DNA from: an uncultured Phascolarctobacterium sp.
GTDB lineage: Bacteria > Bacillota > Negativicutes > Acidaminococcales > Acidaminococcaceae
Direction of reading: 5' to 3'
DNA: 64,000 bases
Assembly: GCA_947630795.1 (NCBI GenBank)
Contig: CANRJC010000003.1
Coordinates: 62,001 to 126,000 of the forward strand
Numbering within the stretch: position 1 is the stretch's first letter; each line of letters begins with the position of its first letter. The notes under the pieces were generated by a model, which worked only from the letters and a program-made list of their open reading frames with translations, was not told the origin of the DNA and did not search any database. Shown in pieces: positions 18,505 to 30,440 of the stretch. Both the position numbers and the translations under genes were made by a program.

Positions 18505-18533
18505 TTGACAAACAAATGCTTATTACATATAAT
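18505..18533 (+). promoter_or_regulatory. near-consensus promoter of the mad (malonate) operon
   Basis: A perfect TTGACA, a 17-nt spacer and a perfect TATAAT. The predicted RNA start is near 18540. Such a strong promoter implies that control acts later, in the roughly 620-nt leader before the first gene. That leader (18540-19158) contains no recognisable coding gene. Confidence 0.9.
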
Positions 18534-18540
18534 CTAGGCC

Positions 18541-18566
18541 GTAGAGTTCGAGAGCAAGAGAGAGTT
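18541..18566 (+). promoter_or_regulatory. purine-rich NAG element A, at the 5' end of the mad leader RNA
   Basis: UAG followed by GAGAG, AAG and GAGAG runs, at the very start of the predicted transcript. It shares GAGAGCAA and GAGAGUU with element B and the UAG-N5/6-GAGAG layout with elements B and C. HutP proteins are known to bind repeated NAG triplets, so this is a candidate binding site (inference). Its AAGAGAG could also pair with CUCUUUU of the terminator at 18600-18643. Confidence 0.55.
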
Positions 18567-18599
18567 ACCCCATTTGTGAGGCCGACATCGCAAATAGTG

Positions 18600-18643
18600 G
18601 AGATTGAGTGATTGAGGATCATTCAGTCTCTTTTTTGTTTTTT
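18600..18643 (+). terminator. leader terminator T1 of the mad operon (attenuator)
   Basis: GAGATTGAGTGAT (18600-18612) pairs with ATCATTCAGTCTC (18618-18630): 13 bp including two G-U, a 5-nt loop, then TTTTTTG and more Ts. It lies 60 nt after the predicted RNA start and ahead of any gene, so it must be bypassed to express mad. A competing hairpin, CCCCATTTG with CAAATAGTGG (18569-18600), touches the foot of its stem. Confidence 0.85.
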
Positions 18644-18681: not shown

Positions 18682-18708
18682 TATAGTGAGATGAGAGCAA
18701 AGAGAGTT
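18682..18708 (+). promoter_or_regulatory. purine-rich NAG element B in the mad leader
   Basis: TATAGTGAGATGAGAG followed by CAAAGAGAGTT. It matches element C over TATAGTG..ATGAGAG, and element A over GAGAGCAA and GAGAGTT. It is downstream of T1 and is not itself followed by a terminator. TATAGT could be misread as a -10 box, but no -35 sits 16-18 nt upstream. Confidence 0.5.
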
Positions 18709-18930
18709 CAAGCTGAATAGTTGTTGGGCAAAAAGTTCCGGAAAAATGATCGAGACACCGCAAAATGAGCGCCGCTTCAAACGGCGGCTCCCTAGGTGCA
18801 AAGGCAGTGAGCTGCCGCGACGATCACGCCGCTGTGATGCTTTTTGACGAAGTCAGGTCAGGTCTTAATTCGTGCAGCGTTCTGCGAGCGGCGGAATGTG
18901 CAAGCCCACAACAGAGAGCCCGGTCGTTTT

Positions 18931-19158: not shown

Positions 19159-19287
19159 ATGAGCGTTGAGATCTACGCACTATTCTCTTACGCATTCACA
19201 GCGGCGATCGCCCTTTTCATGATCGCCATCGTCGTATTGTTGAACAAACTCATGGGCGGCTCTGACAGTGAAGGAGGCGAGCAATAA
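19159..19287 (+). CDS. 42-residue single-span membrane protein, candidate small subunit of the decarboxylase pump
   Basis: A first gene of 42 residues with one hydrophobic helix (about 8-31) and an acidic tail (GGSDSEGGEQ). AAAGGAG lies 9 nt before the ATG, and the stop overlaps the madB start by one base, so it is tightly coupled to the sodium-pump subunit. Its position and shape resemble the small OadG/MmdD/GcdD-type gamma or delta subunits that anchor such decarboxylases, but it is too short to assign by sequence. It was identified here from its ribosome site, coupling and composition. Confidence 0.65.
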   Translation: MSVEIYALFSYAFTAAIALFMIAIVVLLNKLMGGSDSEGGEQ

Positions 19288-20501
19288 TGGATGCATCTTT
19301 CATCGCTGAATTATTCCCCGGCATAGCATCTCTTCTGGTGCAAGACCCTACCATCGCCATCGCCCGTATCTTCTTGGTGGCCTTCGGCTTCGTGCTGGCC
19401 TACTTGGGCTTTAAACGGGTGCTGGAACCTTTGATCATGGTGCCCATGGGCGTGGGCATGATCTGCATCAACTGCGGCGTCCTCTTCTTGGAAGGCGGCA
19501 AGTTGGGCACTCTTTTCCTGGATCCTCTCGTGAGCGATCCCAAACAATTGGTGGACATCATGCAGGTGAACTTCCTGCAACCCATCTACAACCTGACTTT
19601 CTCCAACTCTCTGGTAGCCTGCATGGTCTTCTTGGGCGTAGGCGCCATGTGTGAGATCGGCTTCATTCTGGCCAACCCCTGGACCAGTATCATCATCGCC
19701 ATTTTCGCCGAGGCCGGCACTTTCGCCACTTTGGTCTTGGGCGTGCATCTGGGCCTGACTCCTCCCGAGGCTGCGGCTGTGGCCTCCATCGGCGGCGCCG
19801 ACGGTCCCATGGTGCTGTTCACTTCTTTGATGCTGGCGCCGCATCTCTTCGTGCCCATCAGCGTCATCGCCTACCTCTATCTGTCTCTCACTTACGCCGG
19901 CTACCCCTGGCTGCTGAAAGCTTTGGTGCCGGAAAAATACAGAGGCAAAGACATCATCTTCGATGCTCCCGAAGTTCCCAAATCCAAAAAATTCATCTTC
20001 ATCCTCATCTGCTGCGGTCTGCTCTGCCTGCTGCTGCCCATGGCCGCTCCTCTGATCATGAGCTTCTTCTTGGGCTTGGCCATCAAAGAGGCCGAGATCG
20101 TTCCCTATCAGGATCTGCTGGAAGGCGCTCTGCTCTACAGCGGCACTTTGATGCTGGGCCTGCTGCTGGGCACTCTGTGCGAAGCCTCCACCCTGCTGAA
20201 CCCGAAAGTTGCTCCTCTTATCGTGCTGGGCGTTTTGGCTCTGACCGTGTCCGGTGCCGTAGGCATCTTGGGCGGCTGGGTAGTTTACTGGTTCAAGAAG
20301 GGCAACTTCAACCCGGTAGTCGGCGTGTCCGGCGTATCCTGCGTGCCCACCACCGCCAAGATCGCACAGCATGCTGCTGAGGACGTGGACATGTTTGCCG
20401 TAGTAATGCCCGTAGCTATGGGCGCCAACATCGCCGGCGTCATCGTTTCGGCTATCGCCTGCGGTGTGTTCATCGCTACCATCGGTATGGTAAAAGTTTA
20501 A
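19287..20501 (+). CDS. madB: MadB, sodium-translocating carboxybiotin decarboxylase subunit (OadB/GcdB family)
   Basis: The membrane subunit that decarboxylates carboxybiotin on MadF and uses the energy to export Na+. It has 404 residues with about ten hydrophobic segments. The re-entrant ion-site motif GGADGPMVL (169-177) holds the conserved aspartate D172, equivalent to the essential one in oxaloacetate decarboxylase beta. The second half contains NPKVAPLIVLG and VGVSGVSCVPTTAKIAQ, matching the second conserved loop with its serine. It follows a 42-residue membrane protein and is separated from birA by a perfect palindrome. The context makes it the malonate, not oxaloacetate or glutaconyl-CoA, pump subunit. 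Confidence 0.93.
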   Translation: MDASFIAELFPGIASLLVQDPTIAIARIFLVAFGFVLAYLGFKRVLEPLIMVPMGVGMICINCGVLFLEGGKLGTLFLDPLVSDPKQLVDIMQVNFLQPIYNLTFSNSLVACMVFLGVGAMCEIGFILANPWTSIIIAIFAEAGTFATLVLGVHLGLTPPEAAAVASIGGADGPMVLFTSLMLAPHLFVPISVIAYLYLSLTYAGYPWLLKALVPEKYRGKDIIFDAPEVPKSKKFIFILICCGLLCLLLPMAAPLIMSFFLGLAIKEAEIVPYQDLLEGALLYSGTLMLGLLLGTLCEASTLLNPKVAPLIVLGVLALTVSGAVGILGGWVVYWFKKGNFNPVVGVSGVSCVPTTAKIAQHAAEDVDMFAVVMPVAMGANIAGVIVSAIACGVFIATIGMVKV

Positions 20502-20565: not shown

Positions 20566-21306
20566 ATGGATATCAAACTCTGTTTTTACGACCTGCTGAG
20601 ATCGACCAACGAGACGGCCGCCGCTGCCGCTGCCGAAGGAGCAGCCGAAGGCACCGTCATAGTCGCCGCCCGGCAGAGCGGCGGCAGAGGAAGGCTCACC
20701 AGACACTTCGTTTCTCCCGAGGGCGGGCTCTACTTCTCGCTGATCCTGCGCCCCGCTATCGATCCGGGCTGTGCCGCCCAGCTCACTTTACTGGCCGGCG
20801 TAGCGGTAGCGGAGGCTGTCAACTATCTGTACGAAACAGATAAGGCGCAGATCAAATGGCCCAACGACATCCTCTGGCAGGGACGAAAAGTTTGCGGCAT
20901 CCTCTCCGAAGCGGCTCTGAACGAAACGGGCATCGACTATGCGGTGATCGGTGTCGGCGTGAACGTCGCTTTAAAGGCGGAAGATATCCCGGCCGATCTG
21001 CAAGGCATCGCCGCCTCCCTTTCGGTCGAGACAGGCAGGGAAGTGACGCCCCGCTGTGTGTTGGACGAGATATTGCGGCGTTTCGACGACCTTTACGAAG
21101 AATGGCTGCAAAAAGGAGCGGCGCCGATGCTGGAGCGCTGGCGGCGCTTGAGCTGCACCTTGGGCGCACAGGTCCGGGTGCTGGACGACGGCCGCGAACT
21201 ATGCCGAGGCACGGCCGTTGCCGTCGATGCAAGGGGAGCTCTGCAGATTTGCGATGAGCAAGGCAGTTGCAAGACCTTCGATTTCGGTGAGATCAGCCTG
21301 CGTTGA
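20566..21306 (+). CDS. birA: biotin-[carboxyl-carrier] ligase without DNA-binding domain
   Basis: Attaches biotin to a lysine of carrier proteins through biotinyl-AMP. It has 246 residues. The catalytic domain starts almost at once (FYDLLRSTNETA, about 7-18), with the ATP/biotin loop QSGGRGRLTR (about 42-51), KWPNDI (about 101-106) and a C-terminal SH3-like cap (about 195-246). The N-terminal winged helix that lets many Firmicutes BirA proteins repress biotin genes is absent, so this one is purely enzymatic. Its place inside the mad operon, ahead of two biotin carriers, suggests it is dedicated to MadF. Confidence 0.92.
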   Translation: MDIKLCFYDLLRSTNETAAAAAAEGAAEGTVIVAARQSGGRGRLTRHFVSPEGGLYFSLILRPAIDPGCAAQLTLLAGVAVAEAVNYLYETDKAQIKWPNDILWQGRKVCGILSEAALNETGIDYAVIGVGVNVALKAEDIPADLQGIAASLSVETGREVTPRCVLDEILRRFDDLYEEWLQKGAAPMLERWRRLSCTLGAQVRVLDDGRELCRGTAVAVDARGALQICDEQGSCKTFDFGEISLR

Positions 21307-21377: not shown

Positions 21378-21818
21378 ATGAGTAACGCGGATTATATCGA
21401 CAACAGCATGAGAGGGGTAGGTTCCGTTGCTATGCTCATCGCTCTGACCAAGACCCTGTTGGATGAGCAAAGGCTGAAAGACACCGCCATGCGGCTGGGC
21501 TACCGTGTGGTCGTCACGGAAGTAGGCGGCAGGGCCGGTTTCGACGGCTTCGACGAAAAGGTCATCAAAGCGGTGGTGGGCGCCGGCCTCAACGGCGGCA
21601 TCATCGCCAAACAGAGCAACGAGATCCATGCCTTGGTCCATGCCACCGAAGAAGCCAAGAAGGGCATACTGATCAGCGTGAGCCGCACCAGCAGTTTGGC
21701 CATGAAGGTGGTCATCGCTCGGGACGAGCACTGGCTGGCAGTGGCCATGTTCGGCCTTTCCGCCCTGCACTACATGACCAATCACGAGCGGGCGGGGCTG
21801 GGCATCATGCACATTTGA
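21378..21818 (+). CDS. HutP-family RNA-binding antiterminator in the malonate operon
   Basis: A 146-residue protein related to HutP, the Bacillus protein that binds L-histidine, Mg2+ and NAG-repeat RNA to prevent termination in the hut operon. The metal and ligand histidines align: IHALVHATEEA has H84 and H88 (the H73/H77 pair of HutP) and the C-terminal GLGIMHI has H145 (H138 of HutP, whose end is GVGINHI). GYRVVVTEVG (41-50) corresponds to the HutP strand before its RNA face. No histidine genes are nearby. A terminator with a NAG-rich arm lies immediately downstream and similar elements lie in the leader. I infer it controls mad expression; the ligand is unknown. RBS GGGAGGAAC. Confidence 0.85.
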   Translation: MSNADYIDNSMRGVGSVAMLIALTKTLLDEQRLKDTAMRLGYRVVVTEVGGRAGFDGFDEKVIKAVVGAGLNGGIIAKQSNEIHALVHATEEAKKGILISVSRTSSLAMKVVIARDEHWLAVAMFGLSALHYMTNHERAGLGIMHI

Positions 21819-21851: not shown

Positions 21852-21876
21852 TATAGTGGAATGAGAGAGATGAAAG
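21852..21876 (+). promoter_or_regulatory. purine-rich NAG element C overlapping the terminator before madA
   Basis: TATAGTGGAATGAGAGAGAT then GAAAG. It matches element B at TATAGTG and ATGAGAG. Its AGAGAGA (21864-21870) is itself the left arm of terminator T3, so a protein bound to the NAG triplets would block stem formation. That is the geometry expected for HutP-type antitermination. Confidence 0.6.
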
Positions 21877-21911
21877 CGGAACCACCGCCTTGGTCTCTCT
21901 TTTTGTTTTTT
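21864..21911 (+). terminator. intercistronic terminator T3 between hutP-like gene and madA
   Basis: AGAGAGAT (21864-21871) pairs with GTCTCTCT (21893-21900) with a wobble at the end. After internal mismatches, GCGG pairs with CCGC, then TTTTTGTTTTTT follows. It sits inside the operon, so it can separate expression of the small protein-madB-birA-hutP block from madA onwards. Confidence 0.8.
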
Positions 21912-21960: not shown

Positions 21961-23634
21961 ATGGAGTTTCAAAAAGTCACTCGCGAGTGGGATACTCGCA
22001 AGAAAGACACACTGGCCCGCCTTAACGCAGCAGCTCCGCTGGTCAAGGAAGGGAAGATCGTCGATGCCAAGGATGCGGTTGCCCTGTTGGAAACTGTCAT
22101 CAAACCTTTCGACAAGGTGAACATCGAGGGCAACAACCAGAAGCAGGCCGATTTTCTGGCTCAGTGCCTGTGCAAGGTGGACCCCGGCAAGGTGCACGAT
22201 CTGCACATGGTGCAGTCGGTGCTGACCCTGCCCGAGCATCTGGATGTTTTCGAAAAAGGCATCGCCAAGAAGCTGGATATGTCCTTCTCCGGCCCTCAGG
22301 CCGGCCGCATTGCCGAATTTTTGCAAGCCGGCAAACTGGAATTGGGCGCCATCCACACTTACCTCGAACTCTACGGCCGCTACTTCCTGGATCTTACTCC
22401 CAAGGTAGCTTTGGTAGCAGCCACCATGGCCGACCGTGACGGCAATCTCTTCACCGGCTTCAGCACCGAGGATACCCCCGCCATCGTGGAAGCCACCAAG
22501 TTCCGTCAGGGCATCGTGGTGGTACAGGTCAACCAGATCGTAGACAAACTGCCGCGGGTGGACATCCCCGGCGACTGGGTAGACTTCGTTATCCAATCTC
22601 CCAAACCTTTCTATATCGAGCCTCTCTTCACCAGAGACCCCGCTTTGATCACCGATGCTCAGGTACTGAAGGGCATGATGGCCATCAAAGGCATCTACGG
22701 TGAGTATCAGGTCGAATCCATGAACCACGGTATCGGCTTCGATACCGCCGCCATCGAGCTCTTGCTGCCCACTTACGGCGAGCAGCTGGGCCTGAAGGGT
22801 AAGATCTGCAAGAACTTCATCCTCAATCCCCATCCTTCCCTCATCCCCGCCATCGAGACCGGCTGGGTAGAATCCGTTCACTGCTTCGGCGGCGAGCTGG
22901 GCATGGAAGACTATGTCGCCGCCCGCAGCGATATCTTCTTCGTAGGCCCCGACGGCTCCATGCGTTCCAACCGCGCTTTCTCGCAGACTGCAGGCCACTA
23001 TGCCATCGATATGTTCATCGGCGGCACTCTGCAGATCGATCCTTACGGCAACTCTTCCACAGCCACCGCCAACCGTGTGGCAGGCTTCGGCGGTGCTCCC
23101 AACATGGGCTGCGACCCCAAGGGCCGTCGTCATTCCTCTTATGCCTGGCTGAAATGCGGCGAGGAGTACGGCATCAAAGAGCAAATGTGGGGCCCCGTGC
23201 ACCGCGGCAAACGTTTGGTAGTGCAACTGGCCGAGACCTTCCGCGAGAAGCTGGCCCCCGGCTTCGTAGAAGAGCTGGATGCTTTCAAGCTGGCTAAGAA
23301 CGCCAATCTGGCCATCGAGCCCGTTATGATCTACGGCGACGACCTGACTCACGTCATTACCGAAGAAGGCATCGCTTATCTGCACAAATGCCGCACCATG
23401 GAAGAGCGCACCGCCGCTATCCGGGGTATCGCAGGCTTTACCGAAGTGGGCATGAAGGCCGACCCCAAGGAGACCAAGAGGCTGCGTGAAGCCGGCATCA
23501 TCAAGACTCCGGCCGATCTGGGCATCGATATCTCCAAGGCTACCCGGTCCATGCTGGCAGCCAAGAACGTTCACGACCTGGTAGAATGGTCCGGCGGTCT
23601 TTACAATCCGCCTGCTAAATTCAGGAACTGGTAA
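21961..23634 (+). CDS. madA: MadA, malonate decarboxylase alpha subunit (acetyl-S-ACP:malonate ACP transferase)
   Basis: Exchanges acetate for malonate on the ACP subunit, giving malonyl-S-ACP and free acetate. It has 557 residues and is homologous to MdcA and citrate-lyase-type CoA transferases. It begins with the family's REWDTRKKDTLARL (about 9-22) and contains GFSTEDTPAIVEATKFRQG (about 162-180) and conserved glycine-rich NRVAGFGGAPNMGCDPKGRRH (about 364-384). AGGAAAGGAGAG precedes the ATG. The gene follows terminator T3 and heads the catalytic block madA-madE-madC-madD. No frameshift or truncation is visible. Confidence 0.95.
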   Translation: MEFQKVTREWDTRKKDTLARLNAAAPLVKEGKIVDAKDAVALLETVIKPFDKVNIEGNNQKQADFLAQCLCKVDPGKVHDLHMVQSVLTLPEHLDVFEKGIAKKLDMSFSGPQAGRIAEFLQAGKLELGAIHTYLELYGRYFLDLTPKVALVAATMADRDGNLFTGFSTEDTPAIVEATKFRQGIVVVQVNQIVDKLPRVDIPGDWVDFVIQSPKPFYIEPLFTRDPALITDAQVLKGMMAIKGIYGEYQVESMNHGIGFDTAAIELLLPTYGEQLGLKGKICKNFILNPHPSLIPAIETGWVESVHCFGGELGMEDYVAARSDIFFVGPDGSMRSNRAFSQTAGHYAIDMFIGGTLQIDPYGNSSTATANRVAGFGGAPNMGCDPKGRRHSSYAWLKCGEEYGIKEQMWGPVHRGKRLVVQLAETFREKLAPGFVEELDAFKLAKNANLAIEPVMIYGDDLTHVITEEGIAYLHKCRTMEERTAAIRGIAGFTEVGMKADPKETKRLREAGIIKTPADLGIDISKATRSMLAAKNVHDLVEWSGGLYNPPAKFRNW

Positions 23635-23649: not shown

Positions 23650-23976
23650 GTGGCATTACAAACTTTAGAATTCACTTTTAAATCCGAAGCTACCCAAGGC
23701 ATCGCCAAGCCCTGGTCTCATCTGGGAGTTACCGGCAGCGGCGATCTGGAAGTTTTGATGGAGAAGAAGGACCTGGGCGGCGATGTCAAAGCCAAGGTCA
23801 TCACCCCCGTTAAAGGCTTCGACCAAGTTTGGGAGCGGATGCTGGCCAAATTCGTCAACGATACCGGAGTAGGCAATGTCAGCATCGAGATCAACGACGA
23901 CAATGCTACCCCCATCGTGGTCTACATGCGCTTGCGTCAGGCCCTGGCAGAAGCACAAGCAGAGGAGGCTGAATAA
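23650..23976 (+). CDS. madE: MadE, malonate decarboxylase acyl carrier protein
   Basis: The carrier that holds acetyl or malonyl groups on a 2'-(5''-phosphoribosyl)-3'-dephospho-CoA arm. It has 108 residues, normal for MdcC/MadE. GVTGSGDLEVLME (26-38) is the attachment motif and S30 is the expected modified serine. It starts at a GTG (23650) with GGAGGAGAG upstream, 15 bp after madA, and the next start lies 2 bp after its stop. MadG and MadK, encoded downstream, build and attach the arm and MadH acetylates it. Confidence 0.92.
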   Translation: MALQTLEFTFKSEATQGIAKPWSHLGVTGSGDLEVLMEKKDLGGDVKAKVITPVKGFDQVWERMLAKFVNDTGVGNVSIEINDDNATPIVVYMRLRQALAEAQAEEAE

Positions 23977-23978
23977 GA

Positions 23979-24938
23979 ATGAGATCCTGGAATGAGTTAG
24001 AGACCGGCAGTTTCTTTGATGCCAATGCCCGGGAAAGGGCCGTAGGCATGGTGGACAAAGGCAGCTTTACCGAACTGTTAGGGCCCCTGGACCGCTTCAT
24101 GAGCCCCCATCTGCCGGTGCTGGGCACCGCCGTGGAATTTGACGACGGCACCGTTACCGGCGTAGGCCTCATCGGCAAACACCCCGTTTTCGTTATCTCC
24201 ATGGAAGGCAAATTCATCGGCGGCGCCATCGGCGAAGTCAACGGCGCCAAGATGGTGGGCTCCATCCGTTTGGCTCTGAAGACCGCGGAAGATCTGAAAG
24301 CCGCCCATCCCGACGATTACGAAGAGCGCCGTCCCATGGTGGTCATCTCTTTTGAGACCGGCGGCGTGCGTTTGCACGAAGCCAACGCCGGCCTTTTAGC
24401 TCACGCCGAAGTTATGGATGCCTTCCAAGACTGCCGCAAGAAATTGCCTGTAGTATCCGTAGTAGGCTCTAAGGTGGGTTGCTTCGGCGGCATGGGCTTC
24501 GTAGCCGCAGCCACCGATGTGATCATCATGAACGAGCAAGGCCGTATCGGCCTCACCGGTCCCGAGGTGATCGAGCAGGAAATGGGCAAAGAGGAATTCG
24601 ATGCTTCCAACAAAGCTTTGGTATACCGCACCACCGGCGCCAAACACAAATACATCATCGGCGACTGCAACTATTTGGTGGAAGACAAGATCGGCGCCTT
24701 CCACGCAGCTTTGGCCGACGTGGCCGCTAAAAGCATGGAAGAGATCGAGGGCATGCGCCGCATCGGTTCTTTGAAACTGGTGCAGGAGCAGCAAGGCCTG
24801 GTCAAACTGGTCGGCGATATGCAGCCCAAAGATTCCATGGACCTGTGGAAATATTACGGCAACGAGGACCCGGCGGAATTGCCCGAACTGACTACCGAAG
24901 AGTTCCTGAAGGTTGTTAAACGCAGGGTGCGCCCCTAA
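23979..24938 (+). CDS. madC: MadC, malonate decarboxylase carboxyltransferase beta subunit
   Basis: With MadD it transfers the carboxyl of malonyl-S-ACP to biotin on MadF. It has 319 residues with a crotonase-like carboxyltransferase fold. Oxyanion-type glycine stretches are GKHPVFVISMEGKFIGGAIGE (about 68-88), FETGGVRLHEANAGLLAHAE (about 126-145) and GCFGGMGFVAAATDVIIMNE (about 167-186). In biotin-independent MdcD the homologous site decarboxylates directly; the biotin carrier and pump genes here indicate transfer instead. Tight spacing to madE and madD indicates a stoichiometric complex. Confidence 0.93.
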   Translation: MRSWNELETGSFFDANARERAVGMVDKGSFTELLGPLDRFMSPHLPVLGTAVEFDDGTVTGVGLIGKHPVFVISMEGKFIGGAIGEVNGAKMVGSIRLALKTAEDLKAAHPDDYEERRPMVVISFETGGVRLHEANAGLLAHAEVMDAFQDCRKKLPVVSVVGSKVGCFGGMGFVAAATDVIIMNEQGRIGLTGPEVIEQEMGKEEFDASNKALVYRTTGAKHKYIIGDCNYLVEDKIGAFHAALADVAAKSMEEIEGMRRIGSLKLVQEQQGLVKLVGDMQPKDSMDLWKYYGNEDPAELPELTTEEFLKVVKRRVRP

Positions 24939-24956
24939 AGCGAGGAGGTAACGAAG

Positions 24957-25847
24957 ATGGATGAAATGGACAACACTATGATAGGTCGCGGTCGTGACGC
25001 AATCGAGATGATTGTGGACGAAGGCACTTTCGTAGAAAACAAAGTAGGCGATGCCGACTTCGACCCCGAGTACGGGCCCGGCAGCGTAGTAGGTACCGCC
25101 AAGTTGGAAGGCACCACCTGCACCGTTATCGCCAACGACGCTTATGCTTTCAACGAGCGCTTCCCCGTAGTATTCGGCGGCGTTATCGGTTTGGAAGAAG
25201 GCTATAAGATGGCCACTGCCGTTTACCGCAGCATGGAAGCCGACGCCGACAAACCTCTGGCCGAGAAGCGGCCCCTGATCCTTATCGTCGACACCCCGGG
25301 CAACGGCCCCGGCAAAATGGAAGAGATCGCCGGCATGAACAAATCCACCGGCGGCTATCAGCTGGCTTTGGCCGAAGCCCGCAAGGCCGGTCATCCCGTC
25401 ATCGCCATGGTGATAGGCCGCGCCATCTCCGGTGCCTTCCTGTGCCACGGCTTGCAGGCCGACCACATTTTGGCTCTGTCCAAAGATTTCGGCACCATGA
25501 TCCACGTAATGCCCATCACCTCCATCTCCCGCATCACCAAGATGGATATCGAGCGCTTGGAAGAACTGTCCAAGGTCAACCCGGTATTCGCTCCCGGCGT
25601 AGACTTCTTCTACAATTTGGGCGGCGTGCAGGAGATAGTGAACAAAGTGGAAGACATGCGGCCGGTGATCGCCAAGCATGTGAAAGAAGTAGCCGCTTTG
25701 AAAGCAGCTGGCGAGTACGAAAAACTGGGGCCTTGGGGCCGCGGTCTTTTGGGCGACGAGCGGGGCGGCCGCGTCAGCCGTTTGAAAGCCATCGCCAAGA
25801 TGAACGAAGAGTTCGCCGCCGTAGCGGACAAATATCTCAACGCTTAA
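24957..25847 (+). CDS. madD: MadD, malonate decarboxylase carboxyltransferase gamma subunit
   Basis: Second half of the carboxyltransferase pair, 296 residues. It resembles MdcE and the biotin-binding halves of acyl-CoA carboxyltransferases. GNGPGKMEEIAGMNKSTGGY (about 115-134) and GRAISGAFLCHGLQADHILA (about 155-174) are the conserved active-site stretches. A GAGGAGG RBS precedes the ATG. It lies between madC and madH with gaps of about 20 bp, consistent with one transcript. The C-terminal GRGLLGDERGGRVSRL (about 262-277) is typical of the gamma subunit. Confidence 0.92.
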   Translation: MDEMDNTMIGRGRDAIEMIVDEGTFVENKVGDADFDPEYGPGSVVGTAKLEGTTCTVIANDAYAFNERFPVVFGGVIGLEEGYKMATAVYRSMEADADKPLAEKRPLILIVDTPGNGPGKMEEIAGMNKSTGGYQLALAEARKAGHPVIAMVIGRAISGAFLCHGLQADHILALSKDFGTMIHVMPITSISRITKMDIERLEELSKVNPVFAPGVDFFYNLGGVQEIVNKVEDMRPVIAKHVKEVAALKAAGEYEKLGPWGRGLLGDERGGRVSRLKAIAKMNEEFAAVADKYLNA

Positions 25848-25866
25848 GGGAGAAAGACGAGGTAGT

Positions 25867-26967
25867 ATGGCCGGTATCCTGCAGGAAATAAGCGCACTGG
25901 TAAAAGATTTCGGCTCTGCCCCCACCATGGAGGAGATGCCCCGCCGTCCTTTGGCGGCGAAAGGCATAGCCGGGCCGACGGCAGCGCACGTTATCGAGGA
26001 GGTCCATACGCCCCTCAACCTGAGCTATCTTACCTTCACTACCGGGTCTTCGGCTTTTCAAAACATCGTAGGCATAACCCATGCCGAGCTGCCCGCCCGA
26101 GTGGCCGCTTCTCACGAGGCGCTGCGGCGCTCGGGGGTGAAGCCTCACGATAAAGCGGTAGTGACCTATCCTCCTCTGGTAAATGTTTTCGCCGGAGAAG
26201 CTTTGAAGGCTTACGGTCTGGAGTGGTCGTTCTTGATCCGCTCCAGCCGGGACGCCTTTTTGGCCGCCCTTTACGAACAACAGCCCCAGGTGGTGGTGGG
26301 CGAGAGCTCTTTCTTGAGAGCGGCGCTGGAAGATGCGGTCCACATGGGCGTGGCGCAAGAGCTGCCCCAAGGCCTCATCCTCCTCACTGCCGGCACTCCT
26401 TTGGATCTGGAACTGCTGCCCGTGGCCGAGAAGGTCCTTAAAGCGAAGGTCCACGACCTCTACGGTTGTCAGGAATTCGGCTGGCTGGCTCTGGACGGAG
26501 TGCCGCTGCGGGACGATGTGGAGCTTTTGCCTTTGCCCGGCGGCAAAGGCATGCACGAACTGACAGTGGGAGGCCTGCCCATGGGCGACAGCTTCCCCGT
26601 CAGCGAGAGCGGCCACGTTTGCGATCGTTCGGGGCACATCATCACCTATCGCAGAGAGCGGACCTATCCGGAATTCGAAGTGATCGTCAAAGCCAGCACC
26701 TTGGCTTCGGCGACCACGTTGGGCCGGGTGGCCCGCACCATCCTCCGCATCAAAGGCAGAGTGGTGAAGATAGCTCCCGATGTAGTGCTGAAAGCTCCCC
26801 GCACGGTGCTGGAGCTGAGGCCCGACTGCATAGCTGCGGGCAGAGAACTGCCGGGCTATGTGATAGACGACCCGGCGAAGACAAAATTCTTCGACGATCT
26901 GGTGCAAGCTCAATTGGATTATCAACAAAACAGTAAGGCGGACCCGGTATGGACCAAGCGAAAGTGA
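25867..26967 (+). CDS. madH: MadH, acetate:[acyl-carrier-protein] ligase
   Basis: Acetylates the thiol of the MadE prosthetic group with ATP, priming the enzyme. It has 366 residues of the PaaK-like adenylate-forming fold: the phosphate loop TTGSSA (about 58-63), the substrate region YGCQEFGWLALDG (about 199-211, standing for the YGxTE motif) and ITYRRERTYPEFEVIVKAS (about 259-277). It is short for an adenylating enzyme, and the usual C-terminal lysine domain is reduced. The position between madD and madK is the same as in the Malonomonas cluster (known order), which supports the name more than the motifs do. Confidence 0.82.
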   Translation: MAGILQEISALVKDFGSAPTMEEMPRRPLAAKGIAGPTAAHVIEEVHTPLNLSYLTFTTGSSAFQNIVGITHAELPARVAASHEALRRSGVKPHDKAVVTYPPLVNVFAGEALKAYGLEWSFLIRSSRDAFLAALYEQQPQVVVGESSFLRAALEDAVHMGVAQELPQGLILLTAGTPLDLELLPVAEKVLKAKVHDLYGCQEFGWLALDGVPLRDDVELLPLPGGKGMHELTVGGLPMGDSFPVSESGHVCDRSGHIITYRRERTYPEFEVIVKASTLASATTLGRVARTILRIKGRVVKIAPDVVLKAPRTVLELRPDCIAAGRELPGYVIDDPAKTKFFDDLVQAQLDYQQNSKADPVWTKRK

Positions 26968-27638
26968 AAAGACACAACCTGGCCTATGTTACGGCAGCCG
27001 GCCGTCGGGCTGTTTACGAAGAAGCGGCGCCCCATTACCAAGGCGAGTTTTTGGCCATGGCAGAGGCGGCGCTGTTGGGCGAAGCCGACATCCCCGGCAT
27101 CATGCGGCGGGGGAGCAGAGGCAACGGCCTCCTCCCTGTGGGCTTCGTTCATTATAAAAGAGCGGAGGACGGGCAGCGGCTGCGCCTGCCGGCCTTTGTG
27201 CCGGAGACGGAAGTGGAGGCTGTGATCACACCTTACGACTTGCTGGCGGGCCGCATCTACAGCAAAGATGCTTGGACGCCGCGCACCCGTTGTTTGGAGG
27301 TGGCTGCCTCTATTTTCGAGGCGGCAGTCGATCTGGGCCTGCAAACGGGCCTCTTGGGCTCCGTGGGCTTGGAACTGGCCACCGGGCTGCCCTATACCGA
27401 CGACGCTTCCGATCTGGATATTTTAGTGCAGGCAGCTCCTCTCGCCGCTTTGCAGGAATTGTTCGTCAAAGCACGAGCCCTCTCCATGGGAACGGCCCTC
27501 GACTTTGAGGTGGACCTGCCCAACGGCTACGGGGTAAAGCTGGCGGAACTCTTTATGGACACCGGCACGGTGTTGGGAAAGAGTTTGGATGATGTCCAAC
27601 TGCTGTCCAAAAAGGACACGCTGGAATATTTAAAGTAA
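26949..27638 (+). CDS. madK: MadK, malonate decarboxylase holo-ACP synthase (MdcG family)
   Basis: Transfers the phosphoribosyl-dephospho-CoA arm from its triphosphoribosyl precursor to the serine of MadE. It has 229 residues of the nucleotidyltransferase fold, with LGSVGLELATG (about 136-146) and the metal-binding DDASDLDILVQA (about 150-161). It overlaps madH by 19 bp, so translation is coupled. MadG, which makes the precursor, is encoded seven genes on in the same operon. It is followed by the two biotin carriers. Confidence 0.9.
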   Translation: MDQAKVKRHNLAYVTAAGRRAVYEEAAPHYQGEFLAMAEAALLGEADIPGIMRRGSRGNGLLPVGFVHYKRAEDGQRLRLPAFVPETEVEAVITPYDLLAGRIYSKDAWTPRTRCLEVAASIFEAAVDLGLQTGLLGSVGLELATGLPYTDDASDLDILVQAAPLAALQELFVKARALSMGTALDFEVDLPNGYGVKLAELFMDTGTVLGKSLDDVQLLSKKDTLEYLK

Positions 27639-27652
27639 AGGAGAGTTTTACT

Positions 27653-27862
27653 ATGGAAATCAAATCTCGCGTACCCGGAAAGATCGTTCGTTTCGAGAAA
27701 CAAGTGGGCGACAGCGTGAAGGTCAAAGACGTGCTGATCGTTATGGAAGCCATGAAGATGAAACAATTGGTTCCGTCTCCGGTGGCAGGCGTGGTCAAAG
27801 AGTACAAAGTGCAGCCGGGCGACCGTGTGAGCGCCGGCGCCGTTTTGGCCATCGTCGAGTAA
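27653..27862 (+). CDS. madF: MadF1, biotin carboxyl carrier protein (first copy)
   Basis: A free-standing biotinyl domain of 69 residues that carries CO2 from MadC/MadD to MadB. EAMKMK (32-37) is the biotinylation motif and K35 is the acceptor. Unlike most decarboxylase carriers it has no Ala/Pro linker and is essentially the naked domain. AAAGGAGAG lies before the ATG. It is followed 50 bp later by an almost identical copy that differs by one residue (K23 here, N23 there). Confidence 0.95.
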   Translation: MEIKSRVPGKIVRFEKQVGDSVKVKDVLIVMEAMKMKQLVPSPVAGVVKEYKVQPGDRVSAGAVLAIVE

Positions 27863-27912
27863 AAAGTTTCGTCGAAAATTTGCAAAACATTTGAGCAAAG
27901 GAGAGCAACATC

Positions 27913-28122
27913 ATGGAGATCAAATCTCGCGTACCCGGAAAGATCGTTCGTTTCGAGAAACAAGTGGGCGACAGCGTAAACGTTAAAGACGTGCTGATCG
28001 TTATGGAAGCCATGAAGATGAAACAATTGGTTCCGTCTCCGGTGGCAGGCGTGGTCAAAGAGTATAAAGTGCAGCCGGGCGACCGTGTGAGCGCCGGCGC
28101 CGTTTTGGCCATCGTCGAGTAA
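27913..28122 (+). CDS. madF: MadF2, biotin carboxyl carrier protein (second copy)
   Basis: Identical to MadF1 except N23 for K23. At the DNA level I count five differences in 210 bases, four of them silent. It has its own RBS (AAAGGAGAG) 9 nt before the ATG. K35 in EAMKMK is intact, so both copies can be biotinylated. The second copy may raise carrier dosage, or one may pair preferentially with a different complex; the sequence does not decide. Recent duplication or ongoing gene conversion explains the near identity. Confidence 0.95.
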   Translation: MEIKSRVPGKIVRFEKQVGDSVNVKDVLIVMEAMKMKQLVPSPVAGVVKEYKVQPGDRVSAGAVLAIVE

Positions 28123-28193
28123 AAAGTTCGAACTGTTTTAAACAGCTGTGAGCAAAAATTTCAGATAAAACATATTGATTCCTTTAGTTGTTT

Positions 28194-28220
28194 CACCGCC
28201 TGCCCGGGCGGCAGGCGGTG
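28194..28220 (+). repeat. strong hairpin between madF2 and madL
   Basis: CACCGCCTGCC and GGCAGGCGGTG form a perfect 11-bp stem with a 5-nt loop, followed by an A-rich tract rather than Ts. It is a likely mRNA stability or processing element dividing enzyme genes from transporter genes. Confidence 0.6.
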
Positions 28221-28252
28221 ATAATAAAAAATTGTACTGAGGAGAGATACAT

Positions 28253-28609
28253 ATGGTAATTTACGGTGTAGGTTTGCTGGCTTTCTGCTATTTGACCGGC
28301 ATGTATATCGGCGATGTGCTGGGCGCCCTGCTGGGCGTTAAGGCCAACATCGGCGGCGTGGGCTTCGCCATGCTTTTCCTTATCCTTTTGAGCAATAAGG
28401 GCATCGACGCCGGCTGGCTGGACAAAAAATCTCAGGAAGGCATCGCCTTCTGGGCCGCAATGTACATTCCTATCGTTGTAGCGATGAGCTCTATCCAAAA
28501 CGTGGCAGCAGCCGTCTCCGGCGGCATCGTGGCTTTCTTGGGCGGTCTCTTGGGCTCCGCTCTGGCCTTCCTGCTGATCCCCGTGCTCAGCTCGTTCGCT
28601 AAGAAATAA
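28253..28609 (+). CDS. madL: MadL, malonate transporter small subunit
   Basis: Hydrophobic protein of 118 residues with about four membrane helices (4-24, 32-48, 61-82, 86-112). It is one half of the two-component MadL/MadM malonate:Na+ symporter. FCYLTGMYIGDVLGALLGVKAN (about 11-32) is typical of the family. GAGGAGAGAT precedes the ATG and madM starts 20 bp after its stop. The pairing with madM and the location after madF are as in Malonomonas. Confidence 0.9.
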   Translation: MVIYGVGLLAFCYLTGMYIGDVLGALLGVKANIGGVGFAMLFLILLSNKGIDAGWLDKKSQEGIAFWAAMYIPIVVAMSSIQNVAAAVSGGIVAFLGGLLGSALAFLLIPVLSSFAKK

Positions 28610-28629
28610 GTAGGATAGGAGGTATCATC

Positions 28630-29385
28630 ATGAATTTCGGTGCGATGTTCGGCAAAGTCCTGATGTCCAACGGTTTGATCACCGCTTTCGTTATTATCGC
28701 CATCACCAACCTTATCGCTTATAAATTGGCCGGGCTGTCCAAAGGCCGTATCCACGGCAGCGCCGTGGCCATCCTCTTCGGCCTGGTATTGGCCTATATC
28801 GGCGGCGGCTCCAAAGGTATCGCCACCATTCCTCTTTTCGCAGGCATCGGTATGATGGGCGGCGCTATGTTCCGCGATTTCGCCATCGTATCCACTGCCT
28901 TCGGCGCCGATCTGCGGGAGATCAAAAAAGTGGGCATCGTAGGCGTGCTGTCTTTGGTGTTCGGTCTCATCACTTCCTGGATCGCCGGTGTTGTGGTAGC
29001 CTTCGCTTTGGGCTATCGGTCCAGCGTTGATCTGGTGACCATCGGCGCAGGTGTTGCCACCTTCGTGGTAGGCCCCGTTACCGGCGCTGCTTTGGGTGCA
29101 TCCAGCGAAGTTATCGCCATCTCTATCGCCGCCGGCGTTGTGAAATCTTTGGCGGTAATGATCTTCACTCCTTTCGTGGCCAAGCCTTTGGGCATCAATA
29201 ATCCTCAGTCCGCCATGGTCTTCGGCGGTCTGGCAGGCACCACCTCCGGCACTGCGGCCGGTATGGCGGCAGTAGACCCCAAACTGGTGCCTTATGCAGC
29301 TATGACGGCAACTTTCTACACCGGCTCCGGCTGCCTCACCTTCCCCTCTATCTTCTATTTCCTGACCAGAGCCATCTTCGGTTGA
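28630..29385 (+). CDS. madM: MadM, malonate transporter large subunit
   Basis: The second component of the malonate/sodium symporter, 251 residues, with about seven membrane helices. RDFAIVSTAFGADLREIKKVGIVG (about 80-103) and the small-residue-rich FGGLAGTTSGTAAGMAAVDPKLVPY (about 198-222) are conserved in the family. Na+ pumped out by MadB would drive malonate uptake through this carrier, so the operon closes a sodium cycle. An RBS (TAGGAGGT) lies before the ATG. Confidence 0.9.
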   Translation: MNFGAMFGKVLMSNGLITAFVIIAITNLIAYKLAGLSKGRIHGSAVAILFGLVLAYIGGGSKGIATIPLFAGIGMMGGAMFRDFAIVSTAFGADLREIKKVGIVGVLSLVFGLITSWIAGVVVAFALGYRSSVDLVTIGAGVATFVVGPVTGAALGASSEVIAISIAAGVVKSLAVMIFTPFVAKPLGINNPQSAMVFGGLAGTTSGTAAGMAAVDPKLVPYAAMTATFYTGSGCLTFPSIFYFLTRAIFG

Positions 29386-29418
29386 GCCGGGTCTCGTTTA
29401 TGCATCGATAAAAAACTC

Positions 29419-29467
29419 TCACCTCTTCGGGGCGGGCCTTTTTTAAAGGCAGGCCCCTGCGAGGTGA
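29419..29467 (+). repeat. long imperfect hairpin between madM and madG
   Basis: TCACCTC pairs with GAGGTGA and encloses GGGG/CCCC and GCCTTT/AAAGGC stems. There is no U tract after the outer stem, so it is not a classic terminator. Confidence 0.4.
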
Positions 29468-29495
29468 AGACAGCAAAGAAGGAGCTGAACGCTGC

Positions 29496-30440
29496 TTGAG
29501 CGAAGCTGTGACGGCAAAAAAATTTTTGAGCACCGAAGAGCCGAAGCAGGCAGCGTCTCAGTCTACTTCTTTTTCCTTTTCGGCAGAAGGCTTGGATAAG
29601 CTGAGCCTTTATCTCAGCCAAGCCATCATGCTGGAGGTGTGCGTCCACCCCAAACCGGGGCTGGTGACCCGCTGCAGCCGGGGAGCGCACACGGATATGA
29701 CCATCCTCACCTTTGCGGCGAGCAGCGCCGTGCTGGCCCATGCTTTTAAAAATTTATACGAATTGGGCCTCGCCTTCCCCCGAGGACCGCGGCAGCTTTT
29801 TGCCAAAGCCCGGGCGTTGGGGGCAGAGGCGGAAAAAGAATTGCTGAGGGCGACCAAAGGGGTCAACACTCAGCGGGGCATCTTGTTCAGCGGCGGCATC
29901 CTCTGCGCCGCGGCAGGGCATTGCCTCCGCGACGAACGGGAAAAGAGAGAACTTCTTGCCACGGTCCGAGCCATGACGAAGGGACTGACGGAGAGAGAAC
30001 TGCAAGAGGGGAAAAAAAGCAAAACAGCAGGAGAACTTTTATTTCAACGCTACGGGATCAAAGGCATAAGAGGAGAGATCGAAGCCGGTCTCCCCTGTGT
30101 GACGGGGCGGGGCCTGCCGGCTTTGGAAGAAGCCTTCGCAGCGGGCGCCGATCTTAACGATGCTTTGGTCCACGCTTTCGTCTGCCTGATGGCCGTGACG
30201 GAAGACAGCAACGTGATCTGGCGGGCAGGCCTTGAAGGCGCTCGGCAGGTGAAAGAGCAGGCGGAAAAAATTTTGAGCGCAGGCAGCGTCTTCACTGCTA
30301 AAGGCAGAGCGGCGCTGGCGGAGGCCGAAGATATTTTTGCGGCCCGGCGGATCAGCCCGGGGGGCAGCGCCGATCTTCTTTCCGTGACCATCGCTCTTTA
30401 TCTTTTGAAACATAAGGAGTTTCCCACTGCCATACTCTAG
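29496..30440 (+). CDS. madG: MadG/MdcB, triphosphoribosyl-dephospho-CoA synthase (CitG family)
   Basis: Makes 2'-(5''-triphosphoribosyl)-3'-dephospho-CoA from dephospho-CoA and ATP, the precursor of the MadE arm. It has 314 residues. VHPKPGLVTRCSRGAHTDM (about 49-67) and the C-terminal PGGSADLLSVTIAL (about 288-301) are the two family signatures. The start is a TTG at 29496, 11 nt after GGAG, so the exact start is less sure than usual. In Malonomonas madG lies upstream of madB; here it is at the far end, after the transporter. Confidence 0.88.
   Translation: MSEAVTAKKFLSTEEPKQAASQSTSFSFSAEGLDKLSLYLSQAIMLEVCVHPKPGLVTRCSRGAHTDMTILTFAASSAVLAHAFKNLYELGLAFPRGPRQLFAKARALGAEAEKELLRATKGVNTQRGILFSGGILCAAAGHCLRDEREKRELLATVRAMTKGLTERELQEGKKSKTAGELLFQRYGIKGIRGEIEAGLPCVTGRGLPALEEAFAAGADLNDALVHAFVCLMAVTEDSNVIWRAGLEGARQVKEQAEKILSAGSVFTAKGRAALAEAEDIFAARRISPGGSADLLSVTIALYLLKHKEFPTAIL

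Follow-up and report, generated by a model that had tools for sequence, protein, structure and literature searches.

What does a regulator of the HutP family do in an operon for malonate decarboxylation? The HutP protein of Bacillus subtilis, together with L-histidine and Mg2+, binds clusters of NAG triplets and prevents terminator formation (PMC7430163, PMC8934654). Work on HutP has so far dealt with its part in sensing histidine for a single operon. The window analysed here, a stretch of 64,000 nucleotides from an uncultured Phascolarctobacterium, carries a hutP gene within a Na+-pump malonate decarboxylase (mad) operon. As the original prediction had it, the gene lies between birA and madA, and both flanking genes match their family models (TIGR00121 and TIGR01110, respectively).

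The mad operon and its host genome

The features of the operon are collected in Table 1. Relatives come from Phascolarctobacterium, and a promoter-like sequence is readable at the equivalent place in several relatives. The small membrane ORF that opens the operon has no match in Pfam, and the madH-like gene (25867-26967) owes its name to its position, an NCBIfam search having given no match. Two nearly identical biotin carrier genes stand in tandem at 27653-28122 (starts at about 27653 and 27913), the second copy alone being the basis of the Pfam assignment.

Table 1. Coordinates of operon features within the window
Feature	Position	Strand	Basis
Sigma-70 promoter of mad operon (TTGACA, 17 nt, TATAAT)	18505..18533	+	12/12 consensus bases
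Proposed HutP site I, GAG-rich leader start (TAGAGTTCGAGAGCAAGAGAGAG)	18542..18564	+	NAG triplets 8 nt apart
Proposed HutP site II of leader (AATAGTGGAGATTGAGTGATTGAG)	18593..18616	+	kept in relatives; one of the genome's two pattern matches
Leader terminator, 5' arm within site II	18599..18637	+	fold -18.5 kcal/mol
Further GAG-rich stretch (likely element B of the original prediction)	18682..18706	+	sequence
42-aa membrane ORF, first gene of operon	19159..19287	+	ORF conserved before madB
madB, carboxybiotin decarboxylase Na+ pump subunit	19287..20501	+	TIGR03136 above cut-off
birA, biotin-protein ligase	20566..21306	+	TIGR00121 above cut-off
hutP-family gene (candidate antiterminator)	21378..21818	+	PF09021 match, HutP fold
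Proposed HutP site II, hutP-madA gap (TATAGTGGAATGAGAGAGATGAAAG)	21852..21876	+	conserved in mad loci; mad-only pattern
Terminator before madA, 5' arm within gap site	21863..21911	+	fold about -21 kcal/mol
madA, acyl carrier protein transferase subunit	21961..23634	+	TIGR01110, 971 bits
ACP, beta, gamma, madH-like, mdcG, biotin carriers, madL, madM, mdcB/citG	23650..30440	+	NCBIfam, Pfam matches

Neither hutH nor hutU has a match anywhere in the genome (1.91 Mb, listed as 100% complete), the controls, B. subtilis among them, being positive. The absence of histidine-utilisation genes that had been remarked for the window therefore extends to the whole genome.

The HutP protein of the operon

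The ORF encodes a protein of 146 amino acids that covers the whole of the Pfam HutP profile (PF09021, positions 1-128 of 128) at 103 bits, against a cut-off of 25 (E=1.8e-29), and a sequence search of the PDB with it finds B. subtilis HutP (1vea/1wmq) at E=3.4e-5. An AlphaFold monomer model, built from 16 unaltered homologues (mean pLDDT 88.6), has the HutP fold: its 10 significant matches in the PDB are HutP chains only, with a best E of about 1e-9 and TM scores of 0.66-0.77. Profile and predicted structure thus agree with the original prediction of a HutP homologue at this place. That said, the protein scores 36.2 bits against NF002838, the NCBI hut equivalog, whose cut-off is 155, and it is therefore a HutP-family protein, not a hut orthologue.

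Comparison with the hut protein of B. subtilis (1vea, 1wmq, 1wpv) reveals both likeness and divergence. The fold and the three metal-site histidines are alike, but identity in a structural alignment is about 28%, and positions 55, 56, 88, 98 and 137 are changed. The B. subtilis triad H73/H77/H138 aligns with H84/H88/H136. Two of the three key histidines proposed earlier (H84 and H88) stand; the third, H145, was rejected, since it aligns with B. subtilis H147 and the ligand position falls on H136. The triad positions are histidine in 16, 16 and 15 of the 16 mad HutPs, and the triad is likewise kept in the HutPs of the CoA-transferase clade described below (9/9) and in those of the hut clade, while the symporter clade reads G, G, L.

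The presumed ligand and RNA contacts follow a different pattern. R88 and R98 of B. subtilis HutP, which we take to serve in histidine binding, are kept in hut-type HutPs and replaced in mad HutPs by V/I and A/T/S, respectively. E55, T56 and E137, presumably RNA contacts of the B. subtilis protein, are also altered in the mad clade, and RNA recognition must therefore differ.

Association of hutP with mad genes

The link between hutP and mad is not peculiar to one genome. With one genome scanned per species, 14 relatives of the window's hutP came to light, all of them inside mad operons just before madA. They include those of Clostridia MAGs, in which no birA separates madB from hutP. Full-length mdcA is present in 20 of 251 genomes of the class, and in every one of the 15 with an mdcA of at least 949 bits (G211 and G154 included) a HutP match lies directly upstream. 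The remaining five genomes, with seven mdcA loci of one family at 866-909 bits, have no hutP in that position. Among 399 genomes of the phylum there are two more mad loci with hutP, one of the hutP genes being apparently frameshifted; a diverged mad clade in the same survey (G604, G584) has none. The co-occurrence implied by the original prediction thus takes in all high-scoring mdcA loci of the class, as well as the Clostridia MAGs.

The mdcA genes of family f35 were weighed as counter-examples and rejected, as the three inspected (L080, L106 and L107) have mdcA without other decarboxylase genes. These genes, accompanied by madL/madM in L106 and otherwise lacking the rest of mad, possibly encode stand-alone malonate CoA-transferases. 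Some relatives (L005:6979, L006:7065, L009:4345, L012:6971 and L008:1919) encode an extra, fast-evolving HutP immediately ahead of the mad leader, and the window has no such gene.

Terminator-fused RNA elements

The operon leader and the hutP-madA gap share one arrangement, in which AUAGUGGNGA..GAGAGA is continuous with a terminator's 5' arm, and the same arrangement is found in relatives. The consensus across relatives reads AUAGUGG-N-GA-(A)-N-GAGAGA, followed by a hairpin and a U-tract; GAG-rich leader starts are present in relatives too. Terminators and NAG-rich sequence had been described on both sides of hutP, and they are indeed seen at 18593-18637 and 21852-21911, with a likeness to each other far above chance. 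Predicted folds place the sites within the terminators: holding site II single-stranded abolishes the leader terminator, and the same constraint on the gap site leaves a fold of -4.1 kcal/mol and a U-tract without an adjoining hairpin. The hairpin is lost in this way in 8/8 elements folded.

MAFFT aligned the variable hairpins poorly, and the element was defined by the pattern AGTGGN{1,5}NAGNGAN{12,42}CTTTTT, counted on both strands, together with terminator folding. The 22 matches in 2.13 Mb of fetched DNA all lie within mad operons; the pattern was derived from the relatives' elements and is circular on those loci, and the matches include L108 and L110 from outside the building set. The organism's own genome holds exactly two matches, namely the two mad sites, and since the reversed pattern gives six matches there, the count alone is meaningless and it is the location that matters. 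Elsewhere in the class, matches are about as frequent as those of the reversed-pattern control, lie mostly outside mad and give no evidence of a regulon of trans targets. A second exact match of a first, looser pattern in the same genome (L019) was rejected as apparent coding sequence without a terminator.

The further GAG-rich stretch of the leader fared less well. The sequence on which the original prediction drew is real, but no terminator follows it and most relatives have not conserved it; it is perhaps a decayed second attenuator. Two attenuators are present in the mad leaders of L005, L006 and L012. Cobalamin riboswitches above the Rfam gathering score occur in three other mad leaders (L004:7536-7675, L007:252-392 and L008:3619-3748), where the operon may respond to two signals at the level of RNA, and the window may hold a degenerate copy, unrecognised by Rfam, at about 18760-18900.

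Spacing of the NAG triplets

The proposed sites hold about 2-9 NAG triplets each, and the hutP-madA elements seldom hold a strict series (2/14 at 8 nt). Taken over leaders and gaps of mad and CoA-transferase loci, an 8-nt spacing is favoured (17/43 sites versus 11/404 control leaders, p about 2e-12), and symporter leaders also favour it (6/11 versus 10/365). Such p-values are only guides, since more than one spacing was tried and related loci do not count as independent. A 7-nt register was rejected for the mad and CoA-transferase sites, where it stands near background (3/43 versus 13/404). It is present at hut loci: the hut-clade loci L177-L185 all have NAG triplets at 7-nt spacing after hutP, which we take to be the spacing of the B. 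subtilis hut operon, and loci L186-L190 of that clade, mostly second copies from further along the operon, lack it. This contrast between hut and non-hut registers within one class is a stronger point than the p-values.

Related HutP clades and their targets

In a tree, the window's HutP groups with HutPs of mad and CoA-transferase loci, and B. subtilis HutP with hut-linked HutPs (support 94). The deep branches of this quick tree are weak (support 37), and no clade is therefore claimed as ancestral. Where a genome lacks mad, its closest HutPs (L068-L075 and L079) mostly precede a family-III CoA-transferase gene, the neighbour of L079 not having been read gene by gene. The order at such loci is promoter, GAG-rich start, hutP, terminator-fused GAG-N5-GAG-N5-GAG and target gene. 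The targets are nearest to succinate-hydroxymethylglutarate, glutarate, mesaconate and oxalate CoA-transferases, though they fall under all equivalog cut-offs, and at L075 citF lies just upstream of the hutP and CoA-transferase genes.

The CoA-transferase clade as a whole (L068-L075, L079, L204-L206 and L209) is closest to the mad HutPs. It shares with them the metal triad, the layout of gene, terminator and target, and mostly the same residues at positions 56, 66, 99 and 137; it differs in that the target is a single CoA-transferase gene and the sites are stricter. No description of this clade was found in the open literature.

Elsewhere in the phylum, related hutPs precede genes for acyl-CoA carboxyltransferases (L193, L207 and, by likeness, L200), a family-I CoA-transferase (L201), the beta subunit of a Na+ pump (L195, L196), an ammonium transporter (L213) and an ABC transporter (L214). 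P-II genes have a HutP-family gene upstream of them at L211 and L208; at L211 they stand next to a nifH-like gene, and RNA-level control of nitrogen fixation is possible there.

The class has further HutP clades, whose genomic partners are Na+ symporters, thrS-infC, tyrosine decarboxylase or true hut genes, and single genomes may combine several, G116 and G140 each having HutPs of the hut, CoA-transferase and symporter clades. In one group of genomes (L094, L101, L102 and L105) a HutP-family gene directly follows thrS, mostly before infC, rpmI and rplT-like genes. At L078 and L077 such genes stand beside those for tyrosine decarboxylase, an amino-acid permease and antiporter-like proteins, and L078 has three HutPs in repeated cassettes. 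Symporter leaders across the class carry UAGGAUGG repeats, often with a terminator. The single other HutP of the organism studied here is of this kind (L017:9557-11416, C12): its gene lies next to and downstream of a Na+:solute symporter gene, its product lacks the metal histidines, and CAGTATGGAAGGAAGGTAG, with a NAG every 8 nt, immediately precedes the symporter start codon.

A model for the mad operon and its alternatives

Antitermination of the mad genes had been put forward as the simplest reading of this locus, and a conserved terminator-fused element at both expected positions, as judged from sequence, supports it. The layout is also that of the B. subtilis hut operon, where hutP stands just before the terminator and the first catabolic gene, and NAG-rich sites are fused to terminators; it differs in having malonate rather than hut genes, two attenuated points per operon and sites in an 8-nt rather than a 7-nt register. 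HutP here is probably an antiterminator specific to the mad operon, acting at both terminators in a manner that depends on a metal and an effector. Without effector, RNA polymerase would halt at the terminator just past the promoter, and again in the hutP-madA gap. Once a metal ion and a small effector are present (the likeliest effector being malonate or a close carboxylate or CoA-ester relative), HutP, probably as a hexamer, would bind the GAG-rich sites and occupy the 5' arms of both terminators; hairpin formation would be blocked and polymerase would pass on to transcribe the mad genes. Because hutP lies behind the first terminator, a positive feedback loop is proposed.

An opposite action seems unlikely, namely that HutP represses the operon when malonate use is unneeded, by promoting termination or covering ribosome-binding sites. 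The first GAG-rich site of CoA-transferase loci does overlap hutP's own ribosome-binding region, and at symporter-type loci NAG repeats immediately precede the start codon, so that translational effects are possible at both. At mad, however, the sites make up the 5' arms of terminators, and binding should disrupt these; the family precedent is antitermination (PMC7430163).

The antiterminator might still sense histidine, and so tie malonate use to histidine or nitrogen status. The retained metal triad would fit such a sensor, as would the related hutPs that precede nitrogen genes, with P-II and nifH-like genes at L211 and an ammonium transporter at L213. Yet histidine is unlikely as the effector, given a genome without hutH or hutU and the replacement of residues equivalent to R88 and R98, which hut-type HutPs keep. 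For antitermination by the mad HutPs, the favoured candidate effector is malonate or a related carboxylate; the carboxylate and CoA-ester theme among targets of related hutPs makes such an effector plausible.

That the terminators are constitutive or belong to an RNA-only switch, with hutP a conserved passenger in some other role, is very improbable. A cobalamin riboswitch does share the leader in some relatives, and RNA-only control therefore exists there. Rfam, however, gives no match in the window, nor in its leader with E values of up to 1 allowed; the unpaired 5' motif shows more conservation than a hairpin requires; and a related motif recurs with this hutP clade, including at CoA-transferase loci without mad genes.

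Implications for the HutP family

TRAP recognises spaced NAG triplets in leaders in a ligand-dependent manner (PMC4347634), and the binding proposed here for HutP is alike in these respects. TRAP has an unrelated fold, however, takes 9-11 repeats and stabilises the terminator rather than blocking it; a TRAP-like reading of the window's protein was rejected on its HutP fold and its fewer repeats per site. No paper joining HutP with malonate decarboxylase was found in the open literature, and neither HutP-family wording nor PF09021 appears in the open literature searched, subscription papers lying outside the scope of both searches.

The comparisons suggest a diversified HutP family, broader than its one textbook example, a view that is supported, not proven. 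In its fullest form, to which we give about even chances, HutP would be a large Bacillota family of metabolite-dependent, RNA-binding attenuator proteins in clades dedicated to particular operons: hut; malonate decarboxylase, CoA-transferase and acyl-CoA carboxyltransferase; Na+ symporters; tyrosine decarboxylase; and thrS. Several clades would have cis NAG sites in a clade-specific 7- or 8-nt register and changed or lost metal and ligand pockets, with the mad clade sensing malonate or a related carboxylate. If this is true, an RNA-binding fold of known structure has been adapted to other metabolites and RNA spacings, and the clades would offer a natural series from which to learn how a ligand pocket and an RNA register evolve. 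Many unannotated regulators would then be linked to their target genes, and malonate use would be under RNA-level control in a common gut genus.
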